Shown here in pieces: positions 28,995-62,912 of a DNA stretch of 64,000 bases (position 1 is its first letter; every line of letters starts with the position of its first letter). The stretch is from Chrysophaeum taylorii. Taxonomy: Eukaryota; Sar; Pelagophyceae; Pelagomonadales; Pelagomonadaceae. The notes beneath the pieces are model-generated. The model searched no databases. It saw nothing but the letters and a program-made list of their open reading frames with translations, and had not been told where the DNA came from. A program made the position numbers and the translations under genes. The stretch spans positions 16,616 through 80,615 of the forward strand of contig JAQMWT010000278.1 of NCBI GenBank assembly GCA_029834535.1. Reading direction: 5' to 3'.

Positions 28995-30872
28995 TCAGGG
29001 CCAGGAGGCGCGTTTGGCCGGGTCGAAGGACGCGAGGTGAGTGAGCCACCTTGTGACATTCGGTCCGGCCTTGAGGTCAGTTCTGGCGGTGAGGTCGTCG
29101 TAGAGCTTGGCGTCCCGAGCCGAGGGCTCGAAGCCGCCAACATAGCTCGAAAAGGTGAGCGTCGCTTCGAGGGAGGTTAACAAGTCGTCCTGCTGGGAAA
29201 CCTTGGCAGCGGCAGGTTCCTTTCGCTCTTGTTTTAGCTTCGGTGCTACCACTTTGGGTGGTGGTTTCGAAGAAGAAGAAGAAGAAGAAGGTTGTTGTTT
29301 GGGCGTTTTCCCAGCAGAAGAAGAAGCAGACGAGTCCTTTGGTTGCTTCTTTTTGGAGGAGGGTTTCTGGCCGGGAGCGAGATACTCTTCCCCCGTCTCC
29401 TCCTCGTACTGGGCTTTGAGGGCTTTGAGGTGTTCGACGGCAGCGGCGACGTCGGCAGGCGGAGCTTTGGCCGCCTTGAGGGAGCGAACGACGTCGCCTT
29501 GTTCGACGATCTTAGAAGCCAAGGGACTTTCTTTTTTTGGAGGAAGAAAAGGACTGCCATCCATGTTGCGGACAAAGGGCAAAAAGTCCAGGCCGCCCAT
29601 GTAGGGCACCAGAACAGGGGGAACCGTGACGCCCGCGTCTGTCTGGCCCGTCTCGAGAAGACAACATATGGTACGACCGGCCGCGCAGAGCGTCGAGTTC
29701 AACATGTGTACATATTTCTTTTCTTTGTCGCCGAGCTTGCGCTGACCGCAGCGGATCTCCATTCCGCGGCTCTGGTAGTCGGTACAGTTCGAACACGAAA
29801 CGAGCTCGCGGTATTGCTGCTGGTAGGGAAACCAAGCCTCGAGATCGTACTTTTTGATGGCCGCGTTGTTGAGTTCGCCGCTGACGATGTTGACGACGCG
29901 GTAGGGAAACCCAAAAGACTGAACAAAGGCCTCCGCGATCTCGCGCATCTCCTCGTGCATGGCGCGGCTGGCTGCCATGTCGCCAACGGTAATGCAGAAC
30001 TGCTCGACCTTCTCGAACTGGTGGACTCGGAATATGCCCCAAGTGTCCCTACCGTGCGCGCCCGCCTCTTTCCGGAAACACGTCGAGATGCCGCCGTATC
30101 TCTTCGGAAGCTCCTGTTCTTTCAGCCACTCACCCTTGTGAAAGGCGCAGATCGGCTGCTCGCTCGTGGCGATGAGGTACTTCTCGTCCGAACCGGTCAC
30201 CTTGTAGAGCTCCTCGTCGAACTGCTCGAGCTGCGCGACGCCCGCCATCACCTCCTTGTTCATGAAAAAGGGCGGCTGCATGACAGTGTACTGCCGTTGC
30301 CGAAGGAAGGCGATCCCGTAGTTGATGACGGCCTGGTTCAGGAGCACGCCGACGTCGGTCAAAAAATACGCGCGGTGGCCCGCGACGCGCGCGCCCCGAT
30401 CCGGCTCGTACCCGCCGATCATGTACAGCAACTCGTGGTGGGACCGCTTCGCCTGCGGGCTCTTCGATCCCCATGTCGTCACCACTTCGTTGTCCTTCTC
30501 CTCGTCTTGGGACACCGGCACCGAGTCGTCGACGATGTTCCCGATCCGCGCGAGCATCTTGCGCACCTTGCTCGCCTGCGGCTCTACCGACGATTCCACC
30601 TCTTGCACTTCCTTGTCGAGCCGCTTCAGCTCGCTCAACATCTCCGCCGGCACGTCCTCCTTGGCCTTCTTCAATTTCGTAATCTCCTTCTGCTGCGAGT
30701 TCTTCGCCTCCTTCGCCTTGTCCACGCGGTTCACGATCCGACGCCATGCCTCGTCCTCAAAGATGATCTGATCCACAAGACCCACGTCCCCGAACCGCCG
30801 CCGTTGCGACTCCCGCACCACCTCGGGCTTCCCGCCCAAGTACTCCCGCAAAGACTTTATGTCGATCGGCAT
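28995..30872 (-). CDS. Seryl-tRNA synthetase with WHEP and GST_C-like C-terminal domains
   Basis: A 625-residue protein; start chosen at 30872 (MPIDIKSLREYLGGK), since the upstream open frame only translates a CTCTG repeat. The N-terminal helical arm (about 1-125) binds the long variable arm of tRNA-Ser. The class II catalytic core shows ATSEQPICAFHKGEW, motif 2 FRKEAGAHGRDTWGIFRVHQ and the motif 3 region AAGRTICCLLE. Beyond the usual end, residues about 454-500 (DVVRSLKAAKAPPADVAAAV...) fit a WHEP helix-turn-helix. A Lys/Ser-rich linker follows to about 560. The last 65 residues (SSYVGGFEPSARDAKLYDDL...RWLTHL) resemble the GST_C-like domain of eEF1B and other synthetases. Such appendages usually mediate assembly with eEF1 or other synthetases. 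It charges tRNA-Ser in the cytosol; no targeting peptide is evident. Confidence 0.93.
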   Translation of the reverse strand: MPIDIKSLREYLGGKPEVVRESQRRRFGDVGLVDQIIFEDEAWRRIVNRVDKAKEAKNSQQKEITKLKKAKEDVPAEMLSELKRLDKEVQEVESSVEPQASKVRKMLARIGNIVDDSVPVSQDEEKDNEVVTTWGSKSPQAKRSHHELLYMIGGYEPDRGARVAGHRAYFLTDVGVLLNQAVINYGIAFLRQRQYTVMQPPFFMNKEVMAGVAQLEQFDEELYKVTGSDEKYLIATSEQPICAFHKGEWLKEQELPKRYGGISTCFRKEAGAHGRDTWGIFRVHQFEKVEQFCITVGDMAASRAMHEEMREIAEAFVQSFGFPYRVVNIVSGELNNAAIKKYDLEAWFPYQQQYRELVSCSNCTDYQSRGMEIRCGQRKLGDKEKKYVHMLNSTLCAAGRTICCLLETGQTDAGVTVPPVLVPYMGGLDFLPFVRNMDGSPFLPPKKESPLASKIVEQGDVVRSLKAAKAPPADVAAAVEHLKALKAQYEEETGEEYLAPGQKPSSKKKQPKDSSASSSAGKTPKQQPSSSSSSSKPPPKVVAPKLKQERKEPAAAKVSQQDDLLTSLEATLTFSSYVGGFEPSARDAKLYDDLTARTDLKAGPNVTRWLTHLASFDPAKRASWP

Positions 30873-30881
30873 TATTCTCTC

Positions 30882-30917
30882 CTCTGCTCTGCTCTGCTCT
30901 GCTCTGCTCTGCTCTGT
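30882..30917. repeat. (CTCTG)n pentanucleotide repeat in the SerRS leader
   Basis: About seven CTCTG units lie directly upstream of the SerRS start codon. The antisense reading produces the spurious N-terminal extension of the SerRS frame. Confidence 0.85.
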
Positions 30918-31802
30918 CTGGGGCGCGGTGTCGGCGAAGCGATGGCGAAGCACCTGCCCTCTCAACGGACCTTATTAGGTGCATCTCTCGAGAGATGCAT
31001 GCCACCAGGGCACCACTCTGGGCACCAGGCGCAGGCGATGCCAGCATGACGATATCGAAACTAACTACGGTCATGGATCGAACCCGCGTTAGAGACACGC
31101 ATTATATATAGGCGGTGCACAGGCGACACCACTATCAAGTGGATGTCGTTCGTGCGAAGCAAACAAGTATGCCGTCTGTGAATCAGTCGTCGAAGCTCTT
31201 CGCAAGCAGCCACTCAGCAAAACCATCTTTGATTGATTGATTTACACCCGGGTAGGTAAACTCTAGCTTACTAGAGGCCAGCAAAATGCAAGGGGTGTAG
31301 GCTTACCCTAGCGCGACGCCAAGTATTAATAATCAAAAAACGGCAACCAGGCAGGCAGTCCACACGGGCTTCCACTTGTGGCTGCGCACCAAGGTCGCCC
31401 ACCCGCTGCATAGTCCAATTGAGCCCCCTATCATCACACCCCACAGCAACCTGCCGCACTCGAGTCCGTCCACAAGGGGGCTGGGCCGCGACCGCTCACA
31501 AAACAAAATGCCACCATCCTCATCATCCAAAAAAATGGAACGACTGATAGTTGTTTACGTAGGAAGAAAAATGCTATCATGGCAAGCAAGGTTTCCAAGC
31601 TCAGAGCTCGTTGTATGCCCAGTCGGCATGGGCCACAACATTTCGAAGCTCGGATTAGCGGGGGGGGGCTTCGCATATTATGTTTAAAGCGAAAGCTCGT
31701 CTGGTCGCTCAAGATATAGCTCCATGTTCATAGCGACGACTGACACTGGATAGCCCTGGCGTTTTGCACCAGCGTCGAGACGACCAGTAACCGTCCCACT
31801 CG
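30918..31802. other. Spacer, no supported gene
   Basis: Short open frames only. A GATTGATTGATT stretch at about 31230 next to a conserved-looking block (31240-31320) may be the end of another repeat element, but no partner copy was seen in the window. Confidence 0.4.
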
Positions 31803-37027: not shown

Positions 37028-37924
37028 TTACGAAAATCCCCGAGCCTCGAGCTTGGTTTGGACGTAGAGGTCGATCGCCGCGTCGGGGACGGCGGGTGTC
37101 CCCCGAAAGTCGGCGACGGCGCGGGAGGTCTCTGCCGCGTACCGTCGGTAGCGGCGCGCCCAGTCCCGGGCCCCCGCAGCTTTGGTTTCGGTCGACTCGA
37201 CCGTGTACAAAGCGGTTTGCGCGGCCAGGACCTCGCGGTTGTGACGCACGAGCTGCCGCGCGCGATCGCGACCAACGAGTTTCGCGCACGATTCGACGTC
37301 CCGGAGGGTCCCGAGCGGGAAATGGTCGAATCCAAACGCGACGAGGTCCAAGCCGAGCGTCGCGTGGAGCGACGGCGATGCGTCCGTTTCCGTCGCGTGC
37401 GGCCAAGCAAAAGGGACGTACAACGCCTCGCCGACCGACAGCGTGACGTCGAGGGCCGGGGGCCCTCGCGGCTCGAAGGCCACGGCCTTGCCCACTTCTT
37501 CGAACACCTCGGGCCGCCAGACGCGCCACCGCTGGGACCCCGCGCACTGCAGAGCGATAATCTCCTGAACGTCCGAGTGCGGAGGTGCCCCGATCGACCG
37601 CGGGCCAGTATGGTAGCAGTTTATGGAACACGGCACCGCGAAGGCGCGAATAGCCGCGCGCGCCACCGCGCCGACCTCCGGTACCGTCTCGGCCGCGCCG
37701 TTGATGATGATCGTGCCTTCGTGAGACTCCTCGTCGAGGTCTACGCAATACGCCGCCGCGCGCCATCCCTCATCGTATGGGGGAGCGCTCCGTGAAGCGA
37801 GCAAAAACGACTCGGAGAGCGACTCCATGGTGCACACGGGACCGCCACCTCGCAGGACGACAGGTCGGCAGCCCCACGCCTCGTGAAGGACAGGGTCCGA
37901 CGCGAGTCGACTCAAAAAGTGCAT
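37028..37924 (-). CDS. Cupin/JmjC-type Fe(II)/2-oxoglutarate oxygenase
   Basis: A 298-residue protein with a single cupin core. The iron-binding facial triad is visible as H-S-D in GAPPHSDVQEIIALQCAGSQ and the distal His in LYVPFAWPHATE. The region between (RWRVWRPEV, LSVGEALYVP) fits the Cupin_4/JmjC hydroxylase group that includes ribosomal oxygenases such as NO66 and MINA53. The C-terminal helical part (ARDWARRYRRYAAETSR) fits the dimerisation/winged-helix region only loosely. It probably hydroxylates a protein side chain; the target is unknown. The first Met at 37924 is used; no targeting signal is clear. Confidence 0.82.
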   Translation of the reverse strand: MHFLSRLASDPVLHEAWGCRPVVLRGGGPVCTMESLSESFLLASRSAPPYDEGWRAAAYCVDLDEESHEGTIIINGAAETVPEVGAVARAAIRAFAVPCSINCYHTGPRSIGAPPHSDVQEIIALQCAGSQRWRVWRPEVFEEVGKAVAFEPRGPPALDVTLSVGEALYVPFAWPHATETDASPSLHATLGLDLVAFGFDHFPLGTLRDVESCAKLVGRDRARQLVRHNREVLAAQTALYTVESTETKAAGARDWARRYRRYAAETSRAVADFRGTPAVPDAAIDLYVQTKLEARGFS

Positions 37925-50798: not shown

Positions 50799-52283
50799 AT
50801 GATGATGTTCTTTGTTCTGGCGGCGGGTGCCGCGGGTGATTGGGCGAGCGCGCCGTTGAGGCTCCCGACAGATCGCAGCGGGATGCTGTGGGACCTCGTA
50901 GGGCCCTTCAGCGAGACGTGGCGCGAGCCGTTCGTGTCGATCCGCGGGCGTGACGGCGATGCCGTCACTTTCTTGATGACGGCCGATGAGTTCGTCGCGG
51001 AGCTCGGGTCGTCCGGGCTGTCGGCCGTGCTCCGCATAGAGCTGCTCGATTCCGAGGCACGCGAAGCGCTCGTTTCGCTGTTGGGAAACGATATTCTTGA
51101 GGAACCGGAATCGACGGCGCACGTCTACGTGTCGGCGGGGGGCGGGGGCGCCGCCCTCAAGAACCACAGCGATCCGTACGACGTGGGTGTGTCGCAGCTC
51201 GCGGGGGCGAAGGAGTGGCTCCGGTGTTCCCCCGAGCGCCTCCGGTCCCCTTTTATCGTCTCGAAACTCGACGAGTGCGAGCAATATTCGGCGTCGGAAA
51301 TGGGAGTCATTCTCGACGAAGCCAGAGGCGATTGCGTCGTCGAGACCGTTCGCGCCGGGGACTCGTTTGTAGTGCCGCGCCGCGTCGTCCACTCGGCGCG
51401 GTCTCTGGGCGAACCCTCGGTTCATCTCTCGGTCTCGCGCGGCCGTCGTCGTCGTCGTCTCGACGTACTCGACGCTTGCGAACAGTCGGGTCTCGCCACG
51501 AATGAATGCTCGTGCGACGCGGCGAGCTCGTCGGATACGTGCGACCTCGAGGGCACCGAGGGGGCGCCCTGTCCGCCGGGAACCTACTCGCCCACGGGAT
51601 ATTACGAGGCCAGGTCTGCCGAGTCGTGCGACGACGACTGCGACGAGTCGTGCGACGCGTCCTGCGACGAGAGCTGCCGCGACGACTGCACCACGAGCTG
51701 CGACGCTGGATGCACCTCATCCTGCGACGCCGGTGGCATCTGGTCGTGCGACGAGGACTGCACCCAATCGTGCGACTCCGGATGCGCGACCAACTGCGAT
51801 CGCAGCTGCGACGAGGATTGCGACGACGACTGTTCGGGCGGCTGCGACCAGTGCGGTGGCTGCTACGCGTGTCCGAGGAATACGTGGACCTCCGAGCCGG
51901 GATCCACCTTCTGCGTCGCCTGCGACACGGCTACTATGGCGTGTGCGGACGCGTGCGAAGAACCGGTTCCGTCCCCGACTCCGCGAACGCAAAGCCCGAC
52001 CGATGCTTCCGGGAGTAGTGGCGGCAGCTCCGGCTCGTCGACGATATACTCCGAATCGAAAAAAAAGAAGAAAACACGCCACTCGGCCACGTGGAGCTTA
52101 GTCCTCGTTATATTTAGCATCGTCCTCCTCGTCCTCCTCGCCTGCGGCCTCTTCGCCTGCGGTATCGTATACGGGCGCCGGAGGCAGCAAGGGTGTCGAT
52201 TCGAGGCGGCCTCGGTCGACGTGGGACCGACCATCGAATTCGAACTCCCCAACGACTCGCTCCCTCTAAAGCCTGCCCCGTGA
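50799..52283 (+). CDS. Membrane-anchored JmjC/cupin-like protein with a periodic cysteine rod
   Basis: A 494-residue type I membrane protein. A short hydrophobic leader (MMMFFVLAAGAAG) acts as signal peptide. Residues about 15-225 form a cupin/JmjC-like domain: LKNHSDPYDVGVSQLAGAKE supplies H-x-D and VRAGDSFVVPRRVVHSARSL the distal His, consistent with an Fe(II)/2-oxoglutarate site. Residues about 276-358 hold 21 Cys, most exactly four residues apart (C-D-x-x pattern, Asp-rich), an arrangement that could form a disulfide-laddered or metal-binding rod. An ephrin-receptor-like Cys block (CPRNTWTSEPGSTFCVAC) follows, then a Ser/Gly/Pro stalk. A transmembrane helix (LVLVIFSIVLLVLLACGLFA) and a 45-residue tail end the protein. 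Three consecutive Mets make the exact start uncertain by two residues. Function unknown; a cell-surface or lumenal hydroxylase is possible. Confidence 0.75.
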   Translation: MMMFFVLAAGAAGDWASAPLRLPTDRSGMLWDLVGPFSETWREPFVSIRGRDGDAVTFLMTADEFVAELGSSGLSAVLRIELLDSEAREALVSLLGNDILEEPESTAHVYVSAGGGGAALKNHSDPYDVGVSQLAGAKEWLRCSPERLRSPFIVSKLDECEQYSASEMGVILDEARGDCVVETVRAGDSFVVPRRVVHSARSLGEPSVHLSVSRGRRRRRLDVLDACEQSGLATNECSCDAASSSDTCDLEGTEGAPCPPGTYSPTGYYEARSAESCDDDCDESCDASCDESCRDDCTTSCDAGCTSSCDAGGIWSCDEDCTQSCDSGCATNCDRSCDEDCDDDCSGGCDQCGGCYACPRNTWTSEPGSTFCVACDTATMACADACEEPVPSPTPRTQSPTDASGSSGGSSGSSTIYSESKKKKKTRHSATWSLVLVIFSIVLLVLLACGLFACGIVYGRRRQQGCRFEAASVDVGPTIEFELPNDSLPLKPAP

Positions 52284-57004: not shown

Positions 57005-58408
57005 ATGTTGTGGGTGGCGAGCCGGGCCTTTACGGCGGCCCCAGAGGAGGAGAGCGAGGAGTCGCCGACCCTCGACGAGGCGATCGACGAGTGGATCGAG
57101 AAGAAGGAGCCCGAAGACTTCGCCGAGACACCGGACCGCATGTCCTCGTTCGCGACGATGGCCTCCGACGAAGAGGTTGCGCCGACAAACTGGTGTACCC
57201 TCGAAGGGTGGTTCTTCGATTCGCCCAAGCCCCTGCCGCGAAAGTCTAGTAATAGTTCGCTCAAAAAGAAACGCCGGAACCCAGGCAGAAGAAGGTCGAA
57301 CCAGCGACTCGCGATCGTCGTCGAAACGCCGCCGGAAGCCGCGCCCGCGCCGGCTACCGCGCGGGTCGTCGCCGAGGAACGCCCCCCCAGCAGTCCGACC
57401 CACCTCTTCATCGATGTCGCCCACCTCTTCACCGACCACAACAACGACGTGAGGCTCTGGAGACACTACTTTTGGTTTATGACTTTTGTCGTGCTCTGCG
57501 CCGTCGCTCTGTCATTTCTCGAATACCCGAAAGAACGAAGGATCAAGAACCGCGAGTATCGGCGCGGCGTGCGGATCAAAAGGGTCATCGACATGGGGAT
57601 CGAGGAGGGCTGGTTCGACGAAGACTTCAAGAAGGACGTCAAGCACGCGTGCGATTTCGTCACCGACGACGACAGGAAAGAGCTCCGCTGGGACGTTCCG
57701 GGAAGCATGTTTTTCGTCGCGACAATCGTGACGACGATCGGCTACGGAAACTATGCACCGCAAACACCCTGGGGCAAGATTCTCACCTGCCTCATCGCGA
57801 TACTGGGAGTCGCATGGTTTGGATACATATTGACGGTCGCGGCCGACCGTCTCGAACACCTCGTCCGCTTCGTCGTGCTCCTCGTCCGCAAGGGCTACCG
57901 CTTCACGCGGTCCAAGCTCACGAGACTCGATATCTACCGCACCAACAAAGAGCTCTTTACGCCCAAAAAAAATCTCCAGCGCATCCTCGGCCTCAACGTC
58001 TTGTTTATCGTCTCCGTCTCCGTCTACGCCTACTACTACGGCCTCATCACCATCGGCAACGCCTTCTACCTGGCCATCATCACCTTTTCGACGGTTGGAT
58101 TGGGCGACTACGCCCCCCCCTTCGACGAAGAGAACGAGTCCAGTTTTGAGGCCACCGTCGAACTTCTCGCCTTGGCCGCGCTCGCCATGACGGGCCTAAC
58201 GCTGCTCGCCTCGCTCCTCCGCGCCGTCGAGGCCTATTCCGCCTCGCAAGTCAAAATACTCAAGGGCGGGAAGAGTCCCACCTCGAGGCGCGCCATGCCT
58301 GGCTTCAAGAGCGACCTAAAAGACCACGACAGACCTGTCCTCCACGACGCCCTCGACCACCCCCTCCCACCCCTCGACGACGACAACGACGACGAAGTAA
58401 AAAAATAG
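57005..58408 (+). CDS. Two-pore-domain potassium channel
   Basis: A 467-residue protein. The N-terminal 150 residues are cytosolic and charged, with a basic patch (KKKRRNPGRRRSNQR). The first membrane helix is FWFMTFVVLCAVALSFLEY (about 157-175). The first pore loop carries TTIGYGNYAP (filter T243-G248), followed by LTCLIAILGVAWFGYILTVA. The second half has LNVLFIVSVSVYAYYYGLI, the pore FSTVGLGDYAP (filter T363-D368) and a final helix (LLALAALAMTGLTLLASLL). One GYG and one GLG filter on a single chain fit a dimeric two-pore K+ channel of TPK/K2P type. No EF hands are present in the C-terminal tail, unlike plant TPK channels. It conducts K+ across the plasma or vacuolar membrane. Confidence 0.93.
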   Translation: MLWVASRAFTAAPEEESEESPTLDEAIDEWIEKKEPEDFAETPDRMSSFATMASDEEVAPTNWCTLEGWFFDSPKPLPRKSSNSSLKKKRRNPGRRRSNQRLAIVVETPPEAAPAPATARVVAEERPPSSPTHLFIDVAHLFTDHNNDVRLWRHYFWFMTFVVLCAVALSFLEYPKERRIKNREYRRGVRIKRVIDMGIEEGWFDEDFKKDVKHACDFVTDDDRKELRWDVPGSMFFVATIVTTIGYGNYAPQTPWGKILTCLIAILGVAWFGYILTVAADRLEHLVRFVVLLVRKGYRFTRSKLTRLDIYRTNKELFTPKKNLQRILGLNVLFIVSVSVYAYYYGLITIGNAFYLAIITFSTVGLGDYAPPFDEENESSFEATVELLALAALAMTGLTLLASLLRAVEAYSASQVKILKGGKSPTSRRAMPGFKSDLKDHDRPVLHDALDHPLPPLDDDNDDEVKK

Positions 58409-61505: not shown

Positions 61506-62912
61506 TCAGCGACTAACCGCGGGTGACGACGCGGGCGCCGGCAAAGTCGCGCGAGGCTTTCGCGAAGCACCGCCGCGACGAGACGACGGACGTCTAGCGA
61601 GGAGCTCGTCAAATGCCTCGTCCGACAAACTATCACGGTCCAACACGAGGTGTAGGGGCTTGCCCAATCGCCGGCAGAGCTCTACTCGCGGACGGTAGCG
61701 CTTTTCGAGGCTGTATCCGAGCAAAACTGGACGAGACACCACCTTTTCCCGCAACGTCGCGTCCGAGAGCGAGAGCTCCTCCTGCAAAAATGCAAGTTTC
61801 GGCTCGAGGTTGGCTTCGTAGCTGTAGCCGAGCACGGTTGGCAGCCGCAGCACGATCCTCTTAAGCTCGGCCTCGCTCAGTCCCAGGCGTCGCTGCAGCG
61901 CCGCCAGCGAAGGCTCGACGTTACCCTCGTAGCTGTAGCCGAGGACGGAAGACAGCCGTAGCACAACCTTCTTGAGCTCGGCCTCGCTCAGCCCCAATCG
62001 TCGTCGCAACGCCGCCAACGACGGCTCGATATTCGCCTCGTAGCTGTAACTTAGAGCCTGCGGGAGCCGGAGAATTACCTTCTTCAGCTCCTCTTCGCTC
62101 AGTCCCAGTCGTTCCTTCAGCACCGTCAACGACGGCTCGACGTTTGTCTCGTAGCTATAACAAAGCATCTTTGGAAACCGCACCACGACCTTCCGGAGCT
62201 CTGCCTCGCTCAGTCCGAGCCGCGACTGCGTCGCCGCCAACATCGGCTCGAGCGTGGCCTCGTAGCTAAAGCTGAACGCAGATGGCGCCCCCAGGACCAC
62301 TTTCTTCAGCTCTGCCGTGCTCAGCCCGAGCCGCCTCTGCAACGCCGTCAGCGACAACTCAACGCTGGCCTCGGAACTATAGCTCGCGAGGTGCGGAAGT
62401 CGCAGGACGAGCTTCTTGAGCTCGGCACCTCTCAGTCCAAGCCTTTGCTGCAACGCCGCGAGCGACGGCTCGACTTGAGCCTCGTAGCTGCAGTTGAGCA
62501 CGTTTGGCGTCGCTAGCGCAACCTTCTTCAGCTCGGCGTTGCTCAGCCCAAGCCTTTGCTGCAACGCCGCGAGCGACGGCTCGACTTGAGCCTCGTAGCT
62601 GCAGTTGAGCACGTTTGGCGTCGCCAGCGCGACCCGCTTGAGCTCGGCGTTGCTCAGTCCAAGCCGACGCTGCAACGCATCGCACACAGCTTCTGCTTGC
62701 TCAGGAAAACATCGCTCGCGCAATTCCGCTTCCAAGCTCGAGGCCTCCACAGCGGCGGAACACTCGAAACGAGACGAGGCAAAGTCGGCGACGCTGCCGC
62801 ACCGCACAACTTGTGAGCGCTGCTTCTGCACCGCCGGGCGCAAGCCCTGCAAAAGCGCGCGTGTTGCAACGATAAGCGACATGGTGGCAACTCCCGAGCC
62901 ACCACCCATCAC
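61506..62912 (-). CDS. mTERF family protein with nine repeats
   Basis: A 468-residue protein; the Met at 62882 (MSLIVATRALLQGLRPAVQK) gives a neat organelle-targeting peptide and may be the true start. From about residue 90, nine repeats of 36 residues follow, each of the form LGLSEAELKKVVLRLPxVLG(Y)SYEANVEPSL. This is the mTERF motif that builds a helical solenoid binding nucleic acid in mitochondria or plastids. Repeats one and two are nearly identical at the DNA level (both contain SNAELK and ATPNVLNCSYEAQVEPSL), showing recent internal duplication. The C-terminal repeat (LSDATLREKVVSRPVLLGYS) is the most divergent, as is usual. The tail (RRPSSRRGGASRKP) is basic. It probably acts in organelle transcription termination, splicing or ribosome assembly. 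Confidence 0.92.
   Translation of the reverse strand: MMGGGSGVATMSLIVATRALLQGLRPAVQKQRSQVVRCGSVADFASSRFECSAAVEASSLEAELRERCFPEQAEAVCDALQRRLGLSNAELKRVALATPNVLNCSYEAQVEPSLAALQQRLGLSNAELKKVALATPNVLNCSYEAQVEPSLAALQQRLGLRGAELKKLVLRLPHLASYSSEASVELSLTALQRRLGLSTAELKKVVLGAPSAFSFSYEATLEPMLAATQSRLGLSEAELRKVVVRFPKMLCYSYETNVEPSLTVLKERLGLSEEELKKVILRLPQALSYSYEANIEPSLAALRRRLGLSEAELKKVVLRLSSVLGYSYEGNVEPSLAALQRRLGLSEAELKRIVLRLPTVLGYSYEANLEPKLAFLQEELSLSDATLREKVVSRPVLLGYSLEKRYRPRVELCRRLGKPLHLVLDRDSLSDEAFDELLARRPSSRRGGASRKPRATLPAPASSPAVSR
62440..62655 (-). repeat. Two nearly identical 108-bp mTERF repeat units
   Basis: The DNA for repeats one and two of the mTERF gene is almost the same over 108 bp each, while the other seven repeats have diverged. 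This indicates duplication by slippage or unequal crossover. Confidence 0.8.

Follow-up and report, generated by a model that had tools for sequence, protein, structure and literature searches.

JmjC hydroxylases are known chiefly as nuclear, nucleolar and cytosolic enzymes. One gene of the pelagophyte Chrysophaeum taylorii, lying in a window of 64,000 nucleotides (contig JAQMWT010000278.1, positions 16,616 to 80,615, forward strand), appears to place an apparently intact oxygenase domain of this kind, best known from inside cells, on a membrane-anchored protein with a cysteine rod, and raises the question of what such a domain does there. The gene is a single open frame of 494 codons whose product consists, in order, of a short hydrophobic N-terminus, a JmjC_2 domain, the cysteine rod, a transmembrane (TM) helix and a short tail; the database record of the same protein (P0002) has 492 residues and begins at the third Met. 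These parts and their coordinates agree with the initial annotation of the locus, and the architecture is real and conserved. Our preferred answer, to which we give a probability of about 0.55, is that the product is a type I membrane protein of the secretory pathway, in which a ROX-like, Fe(II)- and 2-oxoglutarate (2OG)-dependent JmjC hydroxylase of a luminal or surface protein would be carried on a disulfide-bonded Cys-Asp stalk.

The JmjC domain and its setting

By sequence, residues and predicted fold alike, the domain behind the N-terminus is a JmjC_2 domain. Residues 104-213 match PF08007 (JmjC_2) with 35.8 bits against a curated cut-off of 22, and the same family is matched at E 0.01 by all 25 members of the protein family. 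AlphaFold2 predicts a confident JmjC fold, a double-stranded beta-helix with NO66 as the nearest structure, in line with the cupin/JmjC fold that had been proposed at first; structural matches to NO66 stop at about residue 216. A Foldseek comparison with viral models brought up JmjC, cupin and unnamed proteins at low identity, and P0001, P0006, P0007 and P0010 had no match in NCBIfam.

The family was assembled from protein searches: the first returned 15 proteins including the query, the second, made with the JmjC part of P0006, 11 including P0006, and the third, made with the 25-row profile, one extra weak match (P0027). Because the first and third searches scored only candidates sharing most words, the lists are incomplete. 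The alignment (A2) holds the query and 24 relatives, P0002, which is the query itself, being dropped from all alignments. Although overall identity with the query is just 28 to 41% in the other rows, NH[ST]D, K138, H198, S207, H209 and Cys 143, 160 and 179 are invariant in all 25, so that the HxD...H set picked out in the initial annotation is conserved throughout. The metal motif overlaps an N-glycosylation sequon (N122 and S/T124) in every row. K138 occupies the position of a Lys that we take to be the 2OG binder.

This constancy bears on a reading in which the protein is a non-catalytic surface receptor or scaffold, its JmjC fold binding metal or a ligand without 2OG turnover. The endoplasmic reticulum (ER) offers a possible parallel in JMJD8, a luminal JmjC protein with a signal peptide and N-glycosylation. 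Its Fe-binding Asp is replaced by His, and those who found it suspected that it is not a hydroxylase (PMC5684140). Demethylation of an AKT1 peptide by JMJD8 was, however, reported later (PMC9820096). The query is not JMJD8, since the Fe-binding Asp is kept: in contrast to JMJD8, the algal family retains D125 (25 of 25) and every other active-site residue tested, together with a hydrophobic N-terminus and, in most members, a rod of Cys and Asp or Asn (Asx). Relatives that are secreted, or that bear a Hint domain (see below), would presumably find little Fe(II) or 2OG outside the cell, which favours a scaffold, but the retention of HxD, K138, H198 and H209 in such divergent sequences makes us regard it as unlikely.

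The enzymes closest in kind are NO66 (RIOX1), MINA53 (RIOX2) and YcfD, with which the query shares the JmjC_2 family, the HxD...H motif, a Lys 15 residues past the first metal His and the nearest predicted fold. Dimerization helices and a winged-helix domain are common to ROX enzymes (review PMC6182338), and in the query a hydrophobic N-terminus, the cysteine rod and a TM helix seem to take their place. AlphaFold2 gives low confidence for residues 217-276, with a single short helix at 223-230, and no confidently folded domain between residues 217 and 430. A winged-helix domain is unlikely, because the residues there are the Cys-rich rod and a linker. As these ROX-defining parts are not seen in the model, ROX membership is not shown, and the query at most works like a ROX enzyme.

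Secretion is suggested by hydropathy. The best 9-residue window within the first 35 residues scores 2.54 in the query (at residue 1) and 2.86, 2.67 and 2.44 in its paralogs C16, C24 and C136, and 22 of the 25 rows reach at least 1.8. Past the JmjC domain the best 19-residue window of the query scores 3.22 at residue 434, coinciding with a predicted helix at 431-463, and the membrane anchor claimed at the outset is thereby supported. Windows of at least 2.1 past the JmjC domain occur in eight of the 25 rows (P0001, P0003, P0013, P0015, P0016, P0017, P0021 and P0022); the value is 2.13 past the Hint domain of P0007 and 1.93 at the extreme end of P0006. Rows without such a window may be secreted or incomplete.

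The cysteine rod

Eighteen cysteines keep a register of four from residue 277 to 349, with one gap at 313, and three more (352, 355 and 358) follow at a spacing of three, which makes up the 21 Cys first reported. Residues 277-346, a region picked after the pattern had been seen, hold 15 Cys pairs at spacing 4, where shuffled sequences average 3.72 and none of 20000 shuffles reaches 15. Three or more C-x3-C steps are present behind the JmjC domain in 23 of the 25 rows, P0017 and P0023 having none. The initial annotation had tied its proposal to relatives keeping both HxD and the periodicity; the former is kept in every row, the latter is absent from these two.

Its suggestion of a regular rod, with the cysteines along a single helix face, gained no support. 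The helix-face rod was rejected, AlphaFold2 giving no confident rod structure either in context or for residues 226-400 alone. In an ideal alpha-helix, Cys residues at i and i+4 drift by about 40 degrees at each step, so that C-x3-C cysteines would not make one straight face. The module preceding the rod resembles Ephrin_rec_like by eye; PF07699 (Ephrin_rec_like) has no match in the query and matches two of the 25 members (P0004 and P0009). A protein search with the rod across the C. taylorii genome found only the rod itself, although simple-sequence handling may hide others.

At the DNA level, positions 51627-51705 form an imperfect 12-base tandem repeat (6.6 copies, 68% matches), and the rod has therefore possibly been lengthened by slippage of a four-codon unit. 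Such a repeat could also be taken to mean that the rod is slipped DNA without a role, or that the frame is not one protein at all, and the suspicion of an annotation artefact is fed by the C16 paralog, whose database model starts downstream of the hydrophobic N-terminus encoded at its locus. Yet the parts stand in the same order in three other single-frame paralogs and the C-x3-C steps recur in several lineages, which leaves an artefact scarcely credible.

C-x3-C units were counted in 27 rows, for which P0003 was replaced by its locus (L003) and C24 and C136 were added. Asp or Asn follows Cys in 165 of the 203 units, and stands at the next two positions in only 33 and 48, giving the unit pattern C-[D/N]-x-[S/G/D/N]. 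The two residues interchange (7 Asp and 8 Asn in P0013; 13 Asp and 7 Asn in P0006). Because Asx dominates this position, enzyme and substrate may conceivably lie in one chain: the JmjC domain would hydroxylate Asp or Asn after Cys in its own or sister rods during secretion, and the hydroxylated rod would bind metal or the cell wall, or anchor the cell covering. Known targets of hydroxylation are C-3 of His or Arg for ROX enzymes and, for ASPH, Asp and Asn in Cys-rich EGF-like domains; ASPH is an ER 2OG oxygenase in whose HX(D/E)...H motif the D/E is missing (PMC4543633). The likeness to ASPH is one of working only, an ER 2OG oxygenase on Cys-rich repeats. The placing of a rod behind the JmjC domain in nearly all rows fits as well. 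Against this, P0017 and P0023 retain the active site without any C-x3-C step, Asp follows Cys in just 10 of the 17 units of the query, and Asx after Cys fits Asx turns or metal binding equally well, so that we hold action on the rod to be improbable.

The composition of the rod (18 Cys, 23 acidic and 2 basic residues in 277-349) would also suit a surface metal-binding Cys-Asp store, the rod being the working part that the JmjC domain only loads or anchors. This is very unlikely, since rod length is highly variable and two relatives lack the rod altogether, whereas the JmjC site is invariant. An oxidising lumen, moreover, favours disulfides over thiolates.

Paralogs, relatives and Hint fusions

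The genome searches covered an assembly of 70.8 Mb in 697 contigs. At least five C. taylorii genes have this architecture: the query (C278), C16, C24, C136 and C466. The first four are single open frames. C466 is scattered over several frames, as if split by introns; NHSD, VHSA and Cys-Asp stretches can be made out in it by eye, along with a Pro-rich stalk and a hydrophobic segment. It was read as separate frames and enters none of the counts. C136 has THTD in place of NH[ST]D. The C16 protein (P0003, CTAYLR_009572) has 440 residues in the database, and the frame at its locus (L003:1381-2790) has 469. The tail of C24 (L005:1357-2706) contains, by eye, two copies of V-P-x-x-x-x-P-G.

JmjC_2 is strongly expanded in the C. 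taylorii genome, with at least 26 places in the family search, C466 not among them. From these, 15 comparison stretches were obtained by setting aside six places without a locus, the query, C16, C24 and C136, and L028, which has a stop in its flank; they were taken to be intracellular by assumption, and reading was confined to the JmjC stretch in most of them. In a tree in which P0003 was again represented by L003, the 27 secretory-type rows fall on one side of a branch from these 15 (support 99/97). The deeper order is unsure, because several branches, that of C136 included, drew a long-branch warning from the program. Asn before the metal His occurs, by eye, in none of the 15. A second JmjC_2 stretch lies in the window itself (37346-37642, minus strand, 54.3 bits); no rod was seen in the frame read, its metal motif is PHSD, and Gln replaces the 2OG-type Lys. 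At L025, HSE replaces HxD.

Only two of the 24 relatives carry a species name, the diatom Cylindrotheca closterium and the C16 protein of C. taylorii. The same part order is present among them, a point that the initial annotation had proposed to check in related genomes; its suggestion that the protein may be lineage-specific stands only in a broad sense, since a diatom and environmental sequences have the architecture too. Searches of an open-licence library found no description of a JmjC domain joined to a cysteine rod; a diatom JmjC gene serves as a quantitative PCR reference (PMC3832940), and nothing shown links it to this family. Scans for viral or bacterial relatives, which were based on two short motifs or on tblastn and may miss distant kin, gave 18 pattern stretches in viral contigs and 10 in genome contigs, none of them confirmed, and no match in phages.

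In two environmental relatives, P0007 and P0010, the JmjC domain and rod are followed by a Hint domain (PF01079; E 3e-27 at residues 440-578 and E 5.7e-24 at residues 425-606, respectively), and likeness to Hedgehog Hint is limited to these two. P0007 matches the hedgehog chain 6tyy (E 7.1e-07), which we take to be of the Drosophila type; Hedgehog-type Hint domains are self-processing. No Hint match was found in the C. taylorii genome. As relatives end in a TM segment, a Hint domain or neither, the JmjC-rod part looks like a module fused to different C-termini.

A proposed hydroxylase of the secretory pathway

Under the preferred reading, the protein would enter the secretory pathway and adopt a type I topology, with the JmjC domain on the luminal or outer side. 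There it would use Fe(II) and 2OG to hydroxylate a luminal or cell-surface protein in trans, most likely during transit through the ER or Golgi, where both can be supplied. The oxidised, presumably disulfide-bonded Cys-Asp rod would be a stalk or docking segment that keeps the enzyme off the membrane. Pelagophytes produce an unusual perforated theca and mucilage via the Golgi (PMC12168098), and these may be a client of the enzyme.

Several observations weigh against this reading. The pLDDT of AlphaFold2 is under 50 for nearly the whole rod in context, and its mean is 44.8 for the rod piece (residues 226-400) folded on its own without an alignment. P0017 and P0023 do without the rod, and the conserved Asn beside the metal His has no explanation. 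The secretory call was made from hydropathy windows, with no predictor and no control set; N-terminal hydropathy stays below 1.8 in P0003, P0009 and P0013, and in P0021 the maximum comes late, at residue 18. Finally, a TM window is missing from many relatives and a Hint domain is present in two; both facts suggest release of some forms from the cell, into surroundings poor in Fe(II) and 2OG.

If the secretory hydroxylase is real, it would place JmjC hydroxylation in the making of the cell surface of heterokont algae. Concrete hypotheses of substrate and processing, testable by mass spectrometry, would follow from the attached rod and from the Hint fusions of the two relatives.

Table 1. Features of the gene and its product; positions are those of the window.
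Feature	Positions	Strand	Basis or remark
Whole gene, single open frame, 494 residues	50799..52283	+	open reading frame analysis
Putative short signal peptide, residues 1-13 (end guessed by eye)	50799..50837	+	hydropathy only
JmjC domain	50916..51446	+	about residues 40-216
N122-H123-S124-D125, metal motif HxD within sequon N-H-[S/T]	51162..51173	+	25/25 rows
K138, counterpart of the NO66 Lys 15 residues past the first metal His	51210..51212	+	alignment with NO66; 25/25 rows
H198, distal metal His	51390..51392	+	25/25 rows
H209, probable counterpart of NO66 His417	51423..51425	+	25/25 rows; alignment end points; PMC8667043
Cys module before rod, residues 258-277 (CPPGTYSPTG...), Ephrin_rec_like/GCC-like by eye	51570..51629	+	
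Periodic rod, residues 277-349, 18 Cys in register of four	51627..51845	+	Cys positions
Cys module after rod, residues 349-386, with Cys 352, 355, 358	51843..51956	+	Cys positions
TM segment, about residues 433-457	52095..52169	+	predicted helix and hydropathy
Short tail at the C-terminus, residues 458-494, on the cytoplasmic side if type I (topology inferred)	52170..52280	+	

Three neighbouring genes in the window are ordinary-looking by eye, and we take them to encode a seryl-tRNA synthetase (28995-30965, minus strand), a two-pore-type potassium channel (57005-58408, plus strand) and an mTERF-like repeat protein (61506-62912, minus strand).
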